DNA from: Pseudomonas bubulae
Lineage (GTDB): Bacteria > Pseudomonadota > Gammaproteobacteria > Pseudomonadales > Pseudomonadaceae
Assembly (NCBI RefSeq): GCF_900618535.1
Contig: NZ_UYJA01000001.1
Coordinates: 248,001-312,000 of the forward strand
Reading direction: 5' to 3'
Length of the DNA stretch: 64,000 nucleotides
Below are positions 52,618-62,477 of this stretch, piece after piece. Made by a program: the position numbers and the translations under genes. How positions within the stretch are numbered: the first letter of the stretch is position 1; each line of letters starts with the position of its first letter. Below the pieces are notes generated by a model. It was not told where the DNA came from, ran no database searches, and was given only the letters and a program-made list of their open reading frames with translations.

Positions 52618-53077
52618 GCAGGCTTAAGAGTGGAGCCAGTCGTAAATCCGGGCGAGTGGAGGGTAGTCCTGATCCGCTGAGCCTGTCGGAGCGGGCATTT
52701 CACCATGCGGCAGTAGCAGTCCGGAGGGGTAAGCAGGGGGAGGATAAATGCTCGAACCGGCTTGATTCGCCGTTGTTCGGTCTGGGCATCAGGTCGATTT
52801 GCCAGCCAGGTTTCAGAGGGATACTTACCGGGCGGGACGGGCGTTTTGTTCGGATATTCAAAAACTCCTATTATAACTAAACTAAACAACCATTTAGTAT
52901 AGTTATAATTATTGGGTATATACGAGCACCCAGAGAGTCAACGCTGTACAAGTCTATGCCTATTCAGTAGAAATTATGAGCTAGATTCCTGCTGTCAAAT
53001 CGCTACTATTGAGTTCATTTTGCCGGATCTGTATGGCCAGCAAGGTGCAAATCAAGCCCTGACGCAAGGATAGTGCG
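52618..53077. other. intergenic region after phoD
   Basis: About 460 bp without a supportable gene. The first part has ordinary GC. The last 220 bp are AT-rich and contain a strong palindrome at 52.87 kb, a likely regulatory region for the DUF4177-yidD pair. Confidence 0.5.
52871..52908. promoter_or_regulatory. 16-bp AT-rich inverted repeat (operator-like)
   Basis: TTATAACTAAACTAAA and TTTAGTATAGTTATAA pair at 15 of 16 positions around CAACCA. The core ACTAAAC-n-TTTAGT shape is typical of TetR-family operators. It lies 170 bp ahead of the DUF4177 gene. No T-tract follows and the stem is AT-only, so it is less likely a terminator. Confidence 0.5.
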
Positions 53078-53584: not shown

Positions 53585-53800
53585 TCAAATTGGCGTTAGC
53601 GTTATTGTTCCGTCAGGCTGTTTTTTAACGGTCAGCGTGTCACCCATAACAATGTCGAGTTCGCTGAGCAAACCATCGGGCAACGGCACGATCTTGTCGC
53701 CAGTGCCAGTGCCAGTGCCAGTGCCAGTGCCAGTGCCATCGGCAGCGTCTTGGCAGATCACAGTTCAGCGTTGGTTTTCAGTACCTGGTACACGGTTCAT
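53585..53800 (-). pseudogene. AbrB/MazE-like domain protein with premature stop
   Basis: A 72-codon minus-strand frame from ATG 53800: MNRVPGTENQR, then TGA at codon 12 (53765-53767), then TVICQDAADG, a (TG)6 run, and GDKIVPLPDGLLSELDIVMGD with an ending TVKKQPDGTITLTPI. The last part is the AbrB/SpoVT swapped-hairpin pattern. The stop could have arisen from TGG (Trp). A GTG two codons after the stop (53761) could restart translation, so a shortened protein is not excluded. No toxin gene is adjacent. Confidence 0.65.
53701..53736. repeat. six tandem CAGTGC hexanucleotides
   Basis: Exactly six copies of CAGTGC lie inside the AbrB-like pseudogene and read as a Thr-Gly dipeptide run on the minus strand. 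Copy number can change by slipped-strand mispairing without shifting frame, since the unit is six bases. Confidence 0.95.
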
Positions 53801-53839
53801 GGTTTTGATCCCAAGATGGTCTGTGGCCCTCCTTTAAAA

Positions 53840-54798
53840 GTGGTTAAACGCTCAAACCCTTAGGATCCGTGGCTTCTAGCGATTCTGACTTTTGAAAATG
53901 GCTAAAAGCTTCAATGCATTAGTGAATTTGAACATTTTAAAAGGAGTGCAGTTTTAGCCCGTAAATGCAGGGGGGCTGAAATAACTTTCGCGCCCAGATT
54001 TTGGTAATGCAAACCAACCAGTTGATTTGTAACGGTTATTTATAAGAGTTTAAGCCCGTGTGGCCTTGTGAATGGTGCCAGTTCTAAAAGTCCAGAAAGA
54101 TCGCTTCCTGTTCCCTTCATAAAGCTGTTTCTCAAGGAGCGTTTGCTAACACGGGGCATCAGGGATGACTCCAAAGCCCCATAGGGTGTTGGAGGGCACA
54201 TTACGTCGACGTTTAACCTCTTCTGGCTACGAGAGGGGGAAGAGGCTAGATAACCCTTGATATGCCATTGAAAGAGGAGTGCGGCTCACAGGCTGAGATA
54301 ACAGGCGCCCTAATAGATCGACTTAGCTCGATGTCAATATAAGTAAAAGCAGATTTTTGACTCAATAGTTAGTCTTTTTTGGCTGTCGGATGCGGCATCT
54401 AAGACTCCTATTTACAGATAATGCGTCATTATCTTGGCGGTTATTTCGAGTCGCAAAATCCAAAAAGTGCTTTCAAATTTGTTAATTGACTTCGGGGCTG
54501 GCTCAGAAAATACGCTCTGGAGTGTGAGCGAGGCTCATGCATCAAGAGTTCCGGCTTGAATTTCAGTCACTTTAATTGAATGTATTGAATATATTGACAC
54601 TTCAGGCGGCGAGCAGAAAGTTATATCAAATAATAATCAATGAGTCGTGAATTCGGGGCTCGCAGGTACTGGGCTCGCTTATTGCTAAATGCGTGCTCGT
54701 CAATTGATTCAATATGTTTAAGCTTGGTGTCAATTAACACAATATTAGTTAAAGCCCTCCGTCAATACATGCAATTTAAGTCAGTACCTAACAAATAG
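53840..54798. other. gene-poor AT-rich region before the transposition operon
   Basis: Nearly 1 kb without a supportable gene on either strand, with GC clearly below the backbone. It includes an inverted pair GTTAATTGAC (54481) and GTCAATTAAC (54729) and several TGTCAAT-like words. The left end of the mobile element probably lies here, but I cannot fix the exact base. Confidence 0.5.
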
Positions 54799-54920: not shown

Positions 54921-56750
54921 ATGTTGAAACCCATCGTCGAAGGAAACTTAGTTAGCTTTGAGGAAAAGGTATATCGTGTAATAGCTTGTCGAGCTGACGG
55001 TGCCATTACCCTAAAAAGCCTTGAAAGTGAGCACTCATTTGATGTGCTCTTTACTCAGGTAAATCTGGTTGAGGTCGATCAAGAAAAACATGAGCTATAC
55101 AATGATCGCCGTTTGATTTGGTTGGAACAAACAGAAGTCAATCCGAAAGAGTTAGCTATTGCTTCGGATCGGGCAAAAAAAATTAACGACTACTTTCAGG
55201 GAAAAGTTTCGCGGGCCGAGCTTATCGAAAAACTTGGCTCATCGGAAACAACGACTCGACGTCTATTGAAAAGATATGATCCAGAGCTTGGTGCTGTTTC
55301 TCTTGTTAGAAGTATCAGAGGGCGTAAAAAAAATTCGCGATTGCTTTCTGATATTCAAGAGAAAATCATGGAGAAAGCAATTTCGAAACGCCTTAATGAT
55401 AAAACCAAAAAATTAGAGGCGTTTGCTTCTCTTTGGGAATATGTCGACTCTCTATGTCACACCATGGGTGTTAAAACCCCGAGTCTTAATGCTCTGAAGC
55501 GAAGGCTTGAATCGTTCGGGCAGAAAGCCGTTTACTCACTGCTGCACGGCAGAGAGCCGATGCTTCAAAAGTTTGAGCTGAAACCAGGGATGATTCACGT
55601 AGATACCATACTTACTATGGTGCAAATCGACCACACACGGGTGGACGTAATTATCTGCGACGAGCATGGTCGACCACTCATGCGGCCTTGGCTGACGGTA
55701 GTTATCGATCTTAAGAGTCGCGTTATTCTTGGTTACTATCTTGCACTCCATCCGCCTAGCGCCCTCAGCGTTGCCATGGCGATGCTTTCGGCCTGTTTTC
55801 CTAAACAAGCCTTTCCAATCGCTCTCGGTGGTGGTCAGAATACTCGCCACAGGTTCTGGGGAGTGCCTGGTGCAATTGGTATGGATAACGCCGCGGAATT
55901 TACTAGCCCAGAACTTGAAGCCACCCTGCAATATTACAAAATCGTCCCCATGCTGCGGCCTATTGGGAAAAAGCATTACGGAGGGCACGTTGAGCGAATT
56001 ATTGGTACGCTGATGGGGAAGGTGCATCTTCTGCCAGGTACTACCTACTCGAATGTGTTGAAGAAAGCAGACTACGACTCTGCCAAGCATTCAGCTATGA
56101 CCTTTTCAGCATTTTGTGAGTGGTTCGCAAACGAAGTGGCGATCTATCATGGGCGTGCTCATGAAGGGTTGAACAGACTTGCGCCGTTCGAGGTTTGGGA
56201 TGCAGAGATGGCCAAGAAGGGGCTGGATTATGTACCTCCAATGCCGGGGAACTTTCAAACATTTGCTCTTGACTTCTTTCCAAGTGTGCTACGAACGGTG
56301 CAATCAAAAGGTGTCGAGTTTAGTAGGTCATTTTACTCTTCGGCAATACTCAGTAGGTTCGTTGGATCACGACTTTCGTTTAAGTACAATCCATTGAATC
56401 TTTCGAAAATATGGTTGCGCCAAGATGGCCGGTATCATGAAATTCCTTATTCTGATCTGACAAAAACACCTGTTTCGTACAGCGAGTACTGGGCGTTTTC
56501 GCGACCTCGCGCCCGTCGTCCGGGAACACTGGTGGACAAGGAGTTGCACCAAGTTCGCTTGGAGAACCATGAGTTAGTGGAAAATTCAAAGGCTACGACC
56601 AAGCGGCTCCGGCAAAACGTCGCCAAGAAAGCTACGGCCGCTGAAACTATGTCTTTTCTTTCCTACGGCGGGGAAGAGCTTTTGCTTCAGGGGAATACCA
56701 AAGAACCGAGCTCTGATCAAACTCGAAAAAAACTTAAGTGGGAAGACTGA
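54921..56750 (+). CDS. tniA: TniA/TnsB-like DDE transposase
   Basis: A 609-residue Mu/TnsB-type transposase. The catalytic triad reads D237 (QIDHTRVD), D322 (IGMDNAAEF) and E358 (GGHVERIIG), spaced D-x35-E as in TniA and TnsB. N-terminal helical DNA-binding domains (about 80-200) precede the RNase H core, and a Mu-type C-terminal beta-barrel (about 460-530) and basic tail follow. It cuts and joins the element ends. With no TnsA nearby, transposition is likely replicative. Confidence 0.92.
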   Translation: MLKPIVEGNLVSFEEKVYRVIACRADGAITLKSLESEHSFDVLFTQVNLVEVDQEKHELYNDRRLIWLEQTEVNPKELAIASDRAKKINDYFQGKVSRAELIEKLGSSETTTRRLLKRYDPELGAVSLVRSIRGRKKNSRLLSDIQEKIMEKAISKRLNDKTKKLEAFASLWEYVDSLCHTMGVKTPSLNALKRRLESFGQKAVYSLLHGREPMLQKFELKPGMIHVDTILTMVQIDHTRVDVIICDEHGRPLMRPWLTVVIDLKSRVILGYYLALHPPSALSVAMAMLSACFPKQAFPIALGGGQNTRHRFWGVPGAIGMDNAAEFTSPELEATLQYYKIVPMLRPIGKKHYGGHVERIIGTLMGKVHLLPGTTYSNVLKKADYDSAKHSAMTFSAFCEWFANEVAIYHGRAHEGLNRLAPFEVWDAEMAKKGLDYVPPMPGNFQTFALDFFPSVLRTVQSKGVEFSRSFYSSAILSRFVGSRLSFKYNPLNLSKIWLRQDGRYHEIPYSDLTKTPVSYSEYWAFSRPRARRPGTLVDKELHQVRLENHELVENSKATTKRLRQNVAKKATAAETMSFLSYGGEELLLQGNTKEPSSDQTRKKLKWED

Positions 56751-56752
56751 GA

Positions 56753-57625
56753 ATGGATGGGGAACATCTGCATGAGAGCCGGCGTCACGCTTTGATTCTG
56801 TCAAATGATGAACGCTGTAAGATTATTCGGCAGGATATTAAGGTCGATACCGAACACTTGCTCACCGTGTCCAACATTGTCGACAACATGCTTAGCATCG
56901 TACGCGGCAGTATGGAGGCTCCGTGTCTAGTCGTATCTGCCGGATCTAACCATGGAAAGACCACGATTTGCAATGCGGTCATGGGGATGGATGAATCATG
57001 GCGTCATAAAATCAGGTTTGTGACCTTTGTCAAGGATACTGGTAAGACAAAGCCAATGGTGAAGCTCTTGACGGCTTTGGGCATGGAACCTGGGAAAGCT
57101 GGGATACCCATTAGCATGGTAGCCGAATATTGTATCGCTAACGATATTCGCGGTGTGTTTATGGATGAGTTTCATGACTCTATCAAAGGACTTTCTAAGG
57201 GCGAGCAGGATACGTTTCTCTCCTTGCTGAGGGGTTTGTGCGGGGCGCCTACTTACCTAAGCTTTTTTGTTTTCGGTACCGATGAGGCCCTCAATGCTCT
57301 CGCAATTGACGCCCAGTACGTCCGCCGATTTGAGCTCTATGAGCTTACTCCTTGGTCGAGAAATGATGCAGAGTACCTTAACTTTTTGGATACATGGGAG
57401 GAGATTGTTCCGCTTTCAAAGAGGTCACATCTTTCTTCTAAGGCAATGTCTGACTATATTTATACTAGTACTTCTGGGGTGATTGGAAGTATTTGCACAT
57501 TACTTCGAGCGGCTGCTTGCCTAGCAGTGATATGGGGCGATGAGAAAATTACACTTCAAAGCTTGCAGGCTGCTACACGTTCGAAGTGGAATACCCGAGT
57601 AAGACCAAAGGGTACTGTCGAGTGA
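56753..57625 (+). CDS. tniB: TniB/TnsC-like AAA+ ATPase
   Basis: A 290-residue ATPase; the ATG at 56753 lies 2 bp after tniA, with GGGAAG at good spacing, and is preferred over an upstream GTG (56738). Walker A is AGSNHGKT (63-70), with alanine replacing the first glycine of the GPTNNGKT form of TniB. Walker B is VFMDEFHD (135-142). The FVFGTDEALNALAIDAQYVRRFELYELTPW segment follows TniB closely. It would link TniQ-bound target DNA to the transposase. Confidence 0.9.
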   Translation: MDGEHLHESRRHALILSNDERCKIIRQDIKVDTEHLLTVSNIVDNMLSIVRGSMEAPCLVVSAGSNHGKTTICNAVMGMDESWRHKIRFVTFVKDTGKTKPMVKLLTALGMEPGKAGIPISMVAEYCIANDIRGVFMDEFHDSIKGLSKGEQDTFLSLLRGLCGAPTYLSFFVFGTDEALNALAIDAQYVRRFELYELTPWSRNDAEYLNFLDTWEEIVPLSKRSHLSSKAMSDYIYTSTSGVIGSICTLLRAAACLAVIWGDEKITLQSLQAATRSKWNTRVRPKGTVE

Positions 57626-58353
57626 AGTATTTATTGTGTCCAAAACAGTATCTAGCTGAGCAGAACGTCTTGGGAGGTTTTTCCGCTAACGTACCAACTA
57701 TTCTAGGTGGGGAGACTTGGACAGGAAAAACCACTGTTGCCAAGCGGTTGGTTAAAAATTCCGATCGGGCACAAGTGTATGCTGCTTATGTGCCTGGAAG
57801 GTTTACTAAGGCATATGACAACGTCTACTCGGCATTCGCGGCAGCTCTGGGCCTTCCCTTGAACAGTCATTTTATGTCTTTTCGAAATGTTGAACATGCA
57901 CTTGAGGATTTGATCGGTGGTCGAGAGTTTCGTCTGGTGTTTGATGATGCAAGTGTTCACTTTGGCGGCGGTGCGGAGCAAAGAAATAATTCTATTGATT
58001 TAGTCGGGGCCTTGCTACAGCGATTTCAGAACTTAAAGATATTGGCTGTGTCTGGGCCCTATATTTTAGATGGAGATCTGAAAAAGATCGTTGCTAAGGA
58101 AGCTCGCTATGTCGACATCGGTTTGTGGCAGGATGACCAACAGTTCCGAACCTTCATTTCACGAGTTGGGGAGACATGTGGCTTCAAACGCTCTCAATTG
58201 CTCAATGACGATTTCATCAAGGGTCTTTTGGTTAGGTCTCATGGTGCCAGTGGAGCTCTCATTCAAATCCTCCAGACGCTAGCGCGTAACTCCAGCTACA
58301 AAGCTTGTCCGTCTTTACCAGTCCAGTGTCTGCGTAACACGTGGAATTTCTAA
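57622..58353 (+). CDS. second AAA+-type ATPase of the transposition operon
   Basis: A 243-residue protein whose GTG start (57622) overlaps the tniB stop in GTGA; an upstream GTG at 57586 is less likely. Walker A is GETWTGKT (30-37) and Walker B is LVFDDA (105-110), with aspartate where a catalytic glutamate is usual. A C-terminal helical lid (LWQDDQQFRTFISRVGETCG, then SHGASGALIQILQTLA) resembles TnsC/TniB. It is a distinct paralogue, not a duplicate. Its role is unknown; a heteromeric or regulatory partner of TniB is inferred. Confidence 0.8.
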   Translation: MKYLLCPKQYLAEQNVLGGFSANVPTILGGETWTGKTTVAKRLVKNSDRAQVYAAYVPGRFTKAYDNVYSAFAAALGLPLNSHFMSFRNVEHALEDLIGGREFRLVFDDASVHFGGGAEQRNNSIDLVGALLQRFQNLKILAVSGPYILDGDLKKIVAKEARYVDIGLWQDDQQFRTFISRVGETCGFKRSQLLNDDFIKGLLVRSHGASGALIQILQTLARNSSYKACPSLPVQCLRNTWNF

Positions 58354-58354
58354 A

Positions 58355-59416
58355 TTGCTCGACGAGTTCTCATCAGGGGCAGCGCCTCGTTTCGTTCTGG
58401 GAGAAACGCTTCTTTCCTGGGTGATGCGGGGGCTTGCCCACAACAAGCTTCGAAACCCTCACCTATTTCGCGAGGCAATCAATCGTGGCCTTTCTGTCCC
58501 CAAGCGCGTGCTTCCCGGGATAGTGGAATCGTGGCCTTTCCCCGCATTCGAGGACATTGAGTTTGATTGCACCACCGAGCTTTTCAGAGTAATGCGTGCA
58601 ACCTATGGTATCGATGGGGTTTTACTGCAGCAGCTATTTGCCGCCCGTCAGTCTCGTTTGATTCACATCCATTACCGACACGCCTACTGTTCTATATGTC
58701 TCAAAGAAAGTATGCGGAGAACAGGTTTTCCCATTTGGCGCCAACCATGGTGCTACACGACCACTGCATTTTGCGTTGATCACCGACGCATTTTAATCAG
58801 GCCTCGGAATACGTTTACCCCCGAAAGGCGGATCTGGGATGCTTACATCTATTCAAAAGGGGAGCGGTCAGTGAAGCATTCTTTATCTGATCGGCGGATT
58901 GCGGGAATCACAATACGCGTACAGCAGTGGATTGATTCTCTAGTAGCGGGACAAGCACTCAATGAAGGGGTGGAAACTCTGTATGGACTGCTGCTTGCGA
59001 AGAGGACGGCGTTTGCACCCGGTGGGATAGCCTCAGCAGGGTTTTCTCGCACTCAGCAACTCCTGTGCAAAGTAAACTTGGATCTGCATGAGCGCATCGA
59101 ATTCGGATTGAATGACAGCGATCCGTACCAGCGGATGGGAGCTTTGCTATTGATCGGATGGTTGAGCGGTATTGTTTCACCAGCAGAGATCGTTTACTTG
59201 GGGCGCCATTACCATTGCGTCCACAGAACGCTGCCACCCTCACCGCAGCAATTGGGACGGTTGGTAGCTCTAGCCCTAAGTGCAGAGGAGGTGATGGTTG
59301 TTCGAGAGAAACTGGTCAACCTGAGGGAGATATCATCCACCATGATGTCGAATTATTTGGAGGGTTTCGGTGAGGCCGCATCACGCTCCCTTCGTTCAAA
59401 CCGGCCAAAGCGTTAA
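58355..59416 (+). CDS. tniQ: TniQ-family target-selection protein
   Basis: A 353-residue TniQ protein, shorter than Tn7 TnsD (about 508). The N-terminal GETLLSWVMRGLAHNK is the family signature. A zinc-finger-like set C112-x2-C115 and C140-x2-H143 encloses GFPIWRQPWCYTTTAF. The start is TTG, 1 bp after the second ATPase stop. TniQ proteins recognise a target and recruit the ATPase. The target of this one is not evident from the flanks. Confidence 0.88.
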   Translation: MLDEFSSGAAPRFVLGETLLSWVMRGLAHNKLRNPHLFREAINRGLSVPKRVLPGIVESWPFPAFEDIEFDCTTELFRVMRATYGIDGVLLQQLFAARQSRLIHIHYRHAYCSICLKESMRRTGFPIWRQPWCYTTTAFCVDHRRILIRPRNTFTPERRIWDAYIYSKGERSVKHSLSDRRIAGITIRVQQWIDSLVAGQALNEGVETLYGLLLAKRTAFAPGGIASAGFSRTQQLLCKVNLDLHERIEFGLNDSDPYQRMGALLLIGWLSGIVSPAEIVYLGRHYHCVHRTLPPSPQQLGRLVALALSAEEVMVVREKLVNLREISSTMMSNYLEGFGEAASRSLRSNRPKR

Positions 59417-60456: not shown

Positions 60457-60915
60457 TCAAACCCAGAATCTCTGGACAGAAGACTTTGATATACCTAGTG
60501 CTTCGGCGACTTCCTTTCTTGATTTGCCTTCCTCTTTGAGTCGCTTGACAGCGAGTCTCTTGCTGTCAGCGATTTCGCGAGCCTTGGCTTTTGATACGAG
60601 GCTGGAGCTTCGCTGCTCCTCGCGTATTTCCTCATCTAGGCCGATCGAGCGGAGTTGACGAAGCTCCTCCTTCAGCTTGCCTATGACATCCAGAGAGTCC
60701 TGTTCACTCTCGATAGACTCGCATAACACCATAAGCGCCAGGGGAGTGATCTCAAGGCTTTTTGAAAGCTCCCGTAGCTTCCCTAGCGATATATTTTTCG
60801 ATGTACCTGCCTCTAGGGCAAAGGCGTAGCTCCTACTAGAGGGGAGTCGTTCCTGAGTGAGCTCTCTAGTTTTTCGTAGCGCGCGAAGCACCACCGCGAG
60901 ACTCTGAGTCAGCAT
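60457..60915 (-). CDS. two-HTH XRE-family regulator
   Basis: A 152-residue regulator. The N-terminal XRE domain (about 5-65) includes LRALRKTRELTQERLPSSRSYAFALEAGTSKNISLGKLRELSKSLEI. A coiled linker (about 75-115) joins a C-terminal HTH (LKEEGKSRKEVAEALGISKSSVQRFW, about 120-151) of the resolvase or Hin type. The two DNA-binding units may bridge sites. It is transcribed toward the transposition operon end and may control the element. Confidence 0.75.
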   Translation of the reverse strand: MLTQSLAVVLRALRKTRELTQERLPSSRSYAFALEAGTSKNISLGKLRELSKSLEITPLALMVLCESIESEQDSLDVIGKLKEELRQLRSIGLDEEIREEQRSSSLVSKAKAREIADSKRLAVKRLKEEGKSRKEVAEALGISKSSVQRFWV

Positions 60916-61748: not shown

Positions 61749-62477
61749 ATGAAACTACAAATCTATTCAGATCTGCACCTCGAGTTCGCTCGGTTCGATC
61801 CCGACCCAACCGACGCGGACGTACTGATTCTCGCCGGCGATATTGATATCAAATCGCGCGGAGTCTCATGGGCGAACGACACATTCCAGTGCCCTGTTAT
61901 CTATGTCTGCGGTAATCATGAGTACTACGGCGGGCACATAGGTCACACACTGTTAAAGATGAAAGACGCTGCATTGCCCCATGTGCATGTACTCGAAAAC
62001 GAGATGCTCATTCTCGATGGCACACGCTTTTTGGTCACAACTGCCTGGACGGATTATTCGGCTACGGGTGATGTGGTTGCGGCAAAGCGGGTTGCATGGG
62101 ATTCGATGAACGATTTCTTGGCTATTCGAGCCGATTTGGATTACAGGCGCTTGCGTCCAGACGACTTAGTCGCGAAATCGATGAGAGCTTACCGCTGGTT
62201 AACCCAAGAGCTTAATAGACCTTTCGATGGCAAAACAGTGGTGGTCACACACCATGCACCAGTGTTGGATCATCTGGGTGACGATCACCCCGGACACCTG
62301 GCTGCAGCCTATGCGAACGATTGGTCAGAGTTACTTACTAAGGCTGATCTTTGGATACATGGGCACACGCATTTTGCAGCAGACTTCCTCAAGAATGGGT
62401 GCCGAGTGGTTTCCAATCCGCGCGGTTATCCGGGTCAAAGCACAGGCTTCGATCCTGAGTACTTGGTAGTGGTTTGA
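61749..62477 (+). CDS. Calcineurin-like metallophosphoesterase
   Basis: A 242-residue phosphoesterase with the full metal-site motif set: SDLHLEF (7-13), GDID (30-33), GNHEYY (55-60), THHAP (167-171) and GHTH (205-208). Substrates of this superfamily range from nucleotides and nucleic acid ends to phosphoproteins; this one is not assignable. It is coupled to the unknown gene upstream, within the accessory region. Confidence 0.9.
   Translation: MKLQIYSDLHLEFARFDPDPTDADVLILAGDIDIKSRGVSWANDTFQCPVIYVCGNHEYYGGHIGHTLLKMKDAALPHVHVLENEMLILDGTRFLVTTAWTDYSATGDVVAAKRVAWDSMNDFLAIRADLDYRRLRPDDLVAKSMRAYRWLTQELNRPFDGKTVVVTHHAPVLDHLGDDHPGHLAAAYANDWSELLTKADLWIHGHTHFAADFLKNGCRVVSNPRGYPGQSTGFDPEYLVVV

Follow-up and report, generated by a model that had tools for sequence, protein, structure and literature searches.

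Relation to described transposons

Transposons of the Tn5053/Tn402 group, the 'res site hunters', carry tniA, tniB and tniQ in this order, have inverted ends with internal repeats and target dimer-resolution sites, in their case the plasmid res sites that are served by serine resolvases. Tn5053 makes 5-bp target-site duplications (TSDs) and reportedly senses res with the resolvase bound to it (Minakhina 1999, as cited in review text). Here we describe a transposon of Pseudomonas bubulae that resembles this group in gene order, end architecture, type of target and length of the TSD, but whose predicted target is dif, the site of XerC and XerD (XerCD), at a distance of 75–133 bp in this and related elements, and whose operon includes an extra ATPase gene, termed at2. 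One end of the element and its operon lie in the window, i.e. the whole stretch of 64,000 nucleotides that was analysed (RefSeq assembly GCF_900618535.1, contig NZ_UYJA01000001.1, positions 248,001 to 312,000). In our preferred reading, to which we assign about even confidence, this is a 62.6-kb TniA-TniB-TniQ transposon inserted by a predicted dif site, in which AT2, a protein with a predicted TnsC-like fold, likely acts as the adaptor that joins TniQ to TniB.

Among other mobile elements, insertion sequences (ISs) of the IS1202 family have been introduced as 'dif site hunters' (Harmer 2023, PMC10132070). According to the available text of that paper, they have a Tn7-type DDE transposase, TGT/ACA ends and a 5-bp duplication and always face the same way on the XerC side of their dif or pdif, all of which is found here as well; yet they are single-gene ISs of Acinetobacter without ATPase or TniQ and insert 5 bp from the XerC site, in contrast to the four-gene operon, the element size of 36–92 kb and the 75–133 bp to the dif core in the present family. 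Type V-K CRISPR-associated transposons (CASTs) such as ShCAST (TnsB, TnsC, TniQ and Cas12k) employ one TnsC and are RNA-guided, whereas two TnsC-like ATPases are encoded here. The operon contains no cas gene and the window gave no Rfam match, most of the cargo being outside the search for cas genes. Tn7 (TnsABCDE) and Tn6022 (TnsABC-TniQ-TnsF) share with our element the core of TnsB, TnsC and TniQ/TnsD as well as site-specific insertion, but the present operon is without TnsA and TnsE, and its added protein is an AAA+ ATPase rather than the tyrosine-recombinase-like TnsF. The absence of TnsA refers to the four operon genes, to which this search was confined. No serine resolvase TniR was detected among the eight window proteins and ten cargo proteins scanned, with the rest of the cargo left unscanned.

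The first-pass annotation of this DNA knew of no characterised element with this gene order, and searches of open-licence papers are in agreement: neither a described Tn7-like subfamily of this kind, nor a TniABQ element at dif, nor a pair of TniB proteins was found by them. Two papers that come close in wording, PMC12893667 (TniQ and dif) and PMC12907356 (Acinetobacter dif, Tn7-like), describe no such element in their available text, and the term 'dif site' is absent from Benler 2021 (PMC8649781) and from a 2024 review (PMC11406308). A screen for TniQ partners excluded TnsC-related proteins, as far as its available text goes (Faure 2023, PMC10293859), which may have hidden AT2.

Organisation of the operon

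All four genes lie on the forward strand. The first, tniA (54921–56750, +), encodes a TnsB-like DDE transposase of 609 amino acids (aa) with a Mu-transpos_C match (35 bits) and the catalytic residues D237, D322 and E358, located in QIDHT, GMDNA and HVERI. It is followed by tniB (56753–57625, +), which encodes a TnsC-like AAA+ ATPase (PF05621, 45.8 bits) of 290 aa if read from the ATG at 56753 within the longest open reading frame (ORF; 56738–57625), and whose profile matches ShTnsC (E 3.2e-9) and VchTnsC (E 7.8e-7). The second AAA+ ATPase gene, at2 (57622–58353, +), was delineated from its ORF, relatives and predicted fold; its longest ORF spans 57586–58353, and the GTG at 57622 gives 243 aa, the length of 18 of 23 relatives. 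The target selector gene tniQ (58355–59416, +) has a TTG start and codes for 353 aa with a PF06527 match (30.2 bits) and a C2-CH finger (CSIC...C..H) that begins at residue 112. The genes tniB and at2 overlap by 4 bases, the GTG of at2 lying on the tniB stop codon, and a single base separates at2 from tniQ. The co-directional arrangement of tniA, tniB and tniQ is that of Tn5053-type TniABQ elements, with one gene added between tniB and tniQ.

The first-pass annotation had proposed four coupled genes with this DDE triad, including a second ATPase with its own P-loop and Walker B motif between TniB and TniQ, and ORFs, Pfam matches and motif positions bear out both proposals. Walker A of AT2 (GETWTGKT, 57709–57732, +) contains G35, K36 and T37, and Walker B (LVFDD, 57934–57948, +) contains D108 and D109; all of these residues, the P-loop lysine K36 included, are kept in 20/20 aligned AT2 proteins. 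In Pfam, AT2 matched AAA_22 alone, below the cut-off (23.3 bits), and did not reach the cut-off of PF05621.

Ends of the element and insertion beside predicted dif

In an alignment of the regions upstream of tniA from five loci, conservation starts at window position 53822 with TGTGGCCCTCCTTTAAAA, preceded by unrelated DNA. This tniA-side end (53822–53839, +) is defined by the conserved block, an inverted partner and the duplication TGGTC, the left copy of which occupies 53817–53821 and is repeated after the right end at G000:C1:364446–364450. A subterminal repeat, TTTTGAAAATGGCTAAAAG (53890–53908, +), is conserved among relatives and probably represents a second TniA binding site. The right end, G000:C1:364445, is situated past the window (116445 if counted from its first base), so that the element extends over 62,624 bp (C1:301822–364445). 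Inverted partners were located by pattern and by duplication, and lengths were computed from end coordinates. The related elements measure 92,250 bp in genome G344 (TSD GCATG), 35,983 bp in Au-Pse12 (CCGGG), about 88.8 kb in KU26590 (genome G182; CTGTG) and about 60.3 kb in P. caspiana (TCAGC), while that of GM79 (TCGGC) is spread across two contigs. All six elements for which both ends are available have inverted ends and perfect 5-bp duplications.

The right ends of this strain, G344 and Au-Pse12 adjoin TCGCATAATGTATATTATGTTAAAT, of which Au-Pse12 has a version that differs by one base. E. coli dif is printed as GGTGCGCATAATGTATATTATGTTAAAT in the available text of PMC3025954 and in a table of PMC2731167, and by its match to this sequence TCGCATAATGTATATTATGTTAAAT is the predicted dif core. 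Each of the six genomes contains exactly one dif-like core with at most 3 mismatches (zero in the reversed control), and the core is single-copy in 45 of the 49 genomes searched. From right end to dif core we measured 75 bp in this strain, 123 bp in G344 and 99, 107, 126 and 133 bp in the others. The six elements occupy six different insertion points, all on the XerC-arm side and in one orientation. Insertion into res sites as known from Tn5053 was not encountered, all six elements lying beside chromosomal dif-like sites. For two of them an empty site could be identified, in that the joined flanks align without interruption to the dif region of another genome (Au-Pse12: 630 bp, 79%; GM79: 614 bp, 84%).

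G344 belongs to the same species as this strain, and the proteins of the two are 99.6–100% alike over the compared parts. Their elements reside in one neighbourhood, with a flank that is 97.8% identical to about 0.9 kb from this strain's end, but have different insertion points and duplications. Since near-identical machinery is thus found at different points of one neighbourhood, we regard the two insertions as separate events. At none of 30 other dif loci, which served as controls, did the main right-end motif of the family occur within 300 bp. That motif does not pick up the KU26590 end either; a looser pattern found this end as well as a short look-alike at one control dif locus.

Three-gene relatives at dif

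Matches to TniB (E 1e-10 or better) were obtained in 45 of 298 genus genomes, and 39 of the 43 TniB-positive genomes other than this strain and G182 contain a dif core. Ends were examined for 35 of the 49 TniB matches in other genomes: a CA end at most 1.4 kb from dif was matched to a TG start lying upstream of tniA if the two shared a 5-bp duplication; the score cut-off was 16 of 24, a value attained in one of 300 mispaired trials. Of 30 such elements with a single ATPase (TniA-TniB-TniQ), 10 are located at dif, on both of its sides and with 5-bp duplications. Those on the XerC side have spacings of 62 (G022), 66 (G288), 32 (G051), 41 (G011), 34 (G100), 46 (G042b) and 42 bp (G229), those on the XerD side of 27 (G064), 27 (G293) and 40 bp (G032). 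G100 and G229 score exactly 16, and G163 (14) and G067 (15) are borderline; G042a, whose upstream DNA ends with the contig so that it could not be scored, is nonetheless among the 30. Such elements beside dif were seen at loci L147–L171 and related loci of other genus genomes. Thus, landing beside dif appears to be common among the TniA-TniB-TniQ elements of this group, and the idea that AT2 is required for dif targeting was rejected. In G057, G078, G194, G190, G101, G143, G263 and G270b, TniQ is replaced by an unrecognised ORF of 372–405 aa, and no qualifying end pair at dif was obtained for these elements (best scores 11–14).

AT2 as a conserved protein

A search of 5.8 billion proteins yielded 23 relatives of AT2 at 52–99% identity, and a profile search, in which the 7995 candidates with the most common words were scored, recovered the identical 23 proteins. 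Strong matches are present in 2 of 298 genus genomes, namely this strain and KU26590; AT2 also occurs in G344 and three further named Pseudomonas genomes. Six weak matches in genus genomes (20–25 bits) turned out to be TniB proteins. No match was found in viral contigs. TniB relatives at the 55–68% level (P0043–P0056) were not found among 398 genus genomes or 298 family genomes.

The order TniA-TniB-AT2-TniQ is retained in 5/5 relatives (tniA and tniQ of G344 extend past the examined stretch), which runs counter to the possibility, raised in the first-pass annotation, that the second ATPase might be an unrelated protein whose presence is not conserved along with this operon. The dN/dS (ratio of non-synonymous to synonymous substitution rates) of at2 is 0.11–0.21 in five of ten pairs, indicative of purifying selection, the other five being saturated. 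Because of this selection, the family of 23 members and the conserved four-gene order, AT2 is not a chance ORF, and a decayed duplicate is ruled out by the first two of these observations. While AT2 has DD in Walker B, 39/40 TniB proteins have DE; the latter also possess, in 40/40 cases, the P-loop lysine and an R[FY] where the finger residue aligns. The TniB finger arginine aligns with R189 of ShTnsC, which together with Q185 reads the nucleotide-bound state according to the available text of PMC9876797. The predicted model of AT2 adopts a TnsC/MuB-type AAA+ fold across the whole protein.

In a comparison of five loci, TniA and TniB show 80–96% identity, whereas AT2 and TniQ show only 47–75% and diverge in step with each other (tniQ of KU26590 was trimmed at an assumed length from the gene end). 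Between this strain and GM79, the synonymous difference is 0.12 for tniA and 0.19 for tniB, but 0.45 for at2 and 0.46 for tniQ, and base identity falls near 57,800, within at2. The simplest reading is that most of at2 and tniQ may have been exchanged together, in a single block, while tniA and tniB were retained as a core.

Other two-ATPase operons and insertion spacing

In 5 of the 35 elements examined, a second ATPase of 226–278 aa outside the AT2 family is encoded between TniB and TniQ (G282, G278a, G157, G241 and G088; L153:6839–7591, +; L016:8875–9705, +; L017:9670–10506, +; L169:6913–7593, +; and, for G241, L158, minus strand). In all five, Walker B has DD and the P-loop lysine is gone. 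A profile built from the G282 and G088 proteins retrieved, beyond these two, the G157 protein only, as a weak match of 21 bits (E 4e-4; 3 of 398 genomes), but neither AT2 nor the G278 protein in the 398 genomes; the latter is close to that of G157. In a tree of TniA with 37 rows, from which three partial sequences were omitted, the two-ATPase elements form two groups, for which two changes in second-ATPase content are needed, one change also being compatible. G088 and G241 were located at dif on the XerD side, at 55 and 52 bp, and the G241 end starts with TGC, not TGT. Not counted were G278a and G157, for which no right end could be located, and G202, G270a, G169, G085, G063 and G282, which have similar right ends with unmatched duplication.

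The spacing to dif is 75–133 bp in the six AT2-family elements versus 27–66 bp in the three-gene relatives. When the ends that reached a score of 16 were compared together with the six AT2-family ends, all dual-ATPase elements lay farther out than single-ATPase ones on the same side, in 48/48 comparisons (42/42 and 6/6). A stratified permutation gave p 6e-5, a value that overstates independence because the dual spacings represent two groups, with six of the eight from one clade. The longer spacing of dual-ATPase elements is therefore suggestive.

Proposed mechanism and alternatives

In type V-K CASTs, TnsB removes TnsC through stimulated hydrolysis up to the resistant turns beside Cas12k-TniQ, as stated in the available text of PMC9876797. 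By analogy, AT2 may replace the hydrolysis-resistant TnsC turns next to TniQ: it would bind ATP and hydrolyse it poorly, an Asp taking the place of the catalytic Glu, and would assemble on the DNA beside TniQ as a lasting AAA+ platform. AT2 would then seed a TniB filament that TniA trims before inserting, and the extra AAA+ segment would move the insertion farther from dif. What TniQ itself recognises may be dif or else dif-bound XerC/XerD, much as Tn5053 reportedly senses resolvase-bound res, of which XerCD-bound dif would be the natural analogue. A role as adaptor segment fits the longer spacing and the linkage to TniQ, and a nucleotide-dependent role is suggested by the P-loop and DD being kept in 20/20 AT2 proteins.

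Several observations weigh against this reading. The identity of dif derives from a sequence match, and no empty site was found for this strain, KU26590 and P. caspiana among all matches in 38 dif loci, nor for G344 among its best 12 matches. Single-ATPase elements beside dif demonstrate that AT2 is not needed to find this site. The suggestion of the first-pass annotation that the second ATPase takes part in target choice is only partly sustained, by the dif-adjacent position of the element and the divergence of AT2 with TniQ, and not by the three-gene relatives, which reach dif without AT2, so that AT2 does not create this choice. Its suggestion of a different target-immunity mechanism finds no support in these data. 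Spacing is no fixed ruler either, as this strain and G344, with their near-identical proteins, differ by 48 bp, and inclusion of the two borderline single-ATPase elements reduces the contrast to 54/56 (p 1.8e-4), G067 (66 bp, XerD side) exceeding both dual values of that side; the clade structure of the dual spacings adds to this. The view that AT2 has cleanly lost its arginine finger was rejected, because R162 occupies the likely finger position in 17/20 proteins, so ATP hydrolysis may persist. The comparison with TnsC envisaged in the first-pass annotation holds for the modelled fold, but the top Foldseek match of the AT2 model is archaeal Orc2, a second structure aligner ranks Cdc6/Orc1 equal to TnsC, which makes the fold non-specific for TnsC, and an AT2 profile run against the sequences of solved structures found no TnsC. 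In a comparison of the AT2 and TniB profiles a C-terminal stretch alone was aligned, with 0.8% probability, and the predicted TniB model is poor (pLDDT, i.e. predicted local distance difference test, of 52).

Alternatively, AT2 might be a regulatory or immunity subunit without a role at dif, limiting or clearing TniB filaments through mixed TniB-AT2 rings. Degenerate AAA+ subunits frequently regulate an active partner, the P-loop lysine is gone in all five second ATPases outside the AT2 family, and dif is reached by elements without AT2; but AT2 diverges, and appears to have been exchanged, with TniQ and not with TniB, and we judge this explanation unlikely. Somewhat less probable still is a merely chaperone-like support of TniQ by AT2, with the longer spacing being a lineage habit of this TniA-TniB pair. 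That six of the eight dual spacings come from one clade, and that those of this strain and G344 lie 48 bp apart, would agree with such a prop, whereas the other dual group, at 52 and 55 bp, is farther out than the score-16 single-ATPase elements on the same dif side (27, 27 and 40 bp), and the invariant P-loop and DD point to a nucleotide-dependent role.

The possibility that AT2 opens a second route, TniB and TniQ leading to dif and AT2 to another target such as plasmids, we consider improbable. Two-pathway life, as in Tn7, is common among Tn7-like elements (PMC11406308, available text), but all six elements with known ends are at dif, 72,556 plasmid records contain no AT2 match at E 1e-5, and the operon has a single TniQ. 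Least probable by far is that the association with dif reflects an island hotspot close to the terminus or one old insertion rather than targeting. The shared neighbourhood of this strain and G344 could be taken as a hint in this direction; it is countered by six different duplications and distances on one side and in one orientation, always within 133 bp, and by the control dif loci devoid of the main right-end motif.

Cargo and flanking sequences

A Cro/C1-type helix-turn-helix gene beside tniQ (60457–60915, −) is recurrent, similar genes being seen by eye in the KU26590, GM79 and P. caspiana loci, and a metallophosphoesterase gene in the cargo (61749–62477, +) is shared with the KU26590 and P. 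caspiana elements. Near the right end are two integrase-like, i.e. tyrosine-recombinase-like, genes (L095:8627–11261, window scale 112627–115261), one with a Phage_integrase match below cut-off and the other recognised by eye with no Pfam match; possibly, they constitute a cointegrate resolution system. Further cargo at L022:2628–10752 resembles a block for resistance to fluoride and other ions, with an NhaA antiporter, a cation P-type ATPase, a pyrophosphatase, CrcB and a chromate transporter. Proteins at L023:11826–14410 and L095:5451–7924 likely serve defence: a pair with weak similarity to ZorA/ZorB, one protein like Shedu SduA and one like NucC/PD-DExK.

To the left of the left end, at 52881–52908, we noted a near-palindromic 28-bp motif, ACTAAACAACCATTTAGTATAGTTATAA; it occurs outside the left end, 0.5–0.9 kb away, in this strain, G344, GM79 and Au-Pse12, and a copy with 5 mismatches lies inside this strain's element at 112549 (window scale), near the two tyrosine-recombinase-like genes. 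Six tandem GTGCCA hexamers are found directly outside the left end (53703–53738). In both this strain and G344 the element is directly preceded by what we take to be an AbrB-like fragment, and in the left flank of G344 (L104) it sits at what is presumably an addiction-module antidote gene.

Implications

How TnsC-type proteins couple target recognition to the transposase and set the insertion distance is an open question that is usually probed by mutation of one protein. Here, the job is apparently divided over two natural ATPases, each half of which can be removed separately. If AT2 indeed bridges TniQ and TniB, this would be a two-part AAA+ clutch joining TniQ at dif to TniB, unlike any known Tn7-like system, and a new way of building a targeted transposon. 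As insertion beside dif leaves dif intact, the site would provide a natural safe landing place, which may be linked to XerCD/FtsK, and a possible use is to place large DNA at a defined site with no need for guide RNA. For the TniABQ class of Pseudomonas as a whole we propose, more tentatively than for the single element, that dif is used as a beacon and that some lineages may have taken up a second TnsC with altered catalysis, coinherited with TniQ, as a distance-setting and hydrolysis-resistant AAA+ platform.

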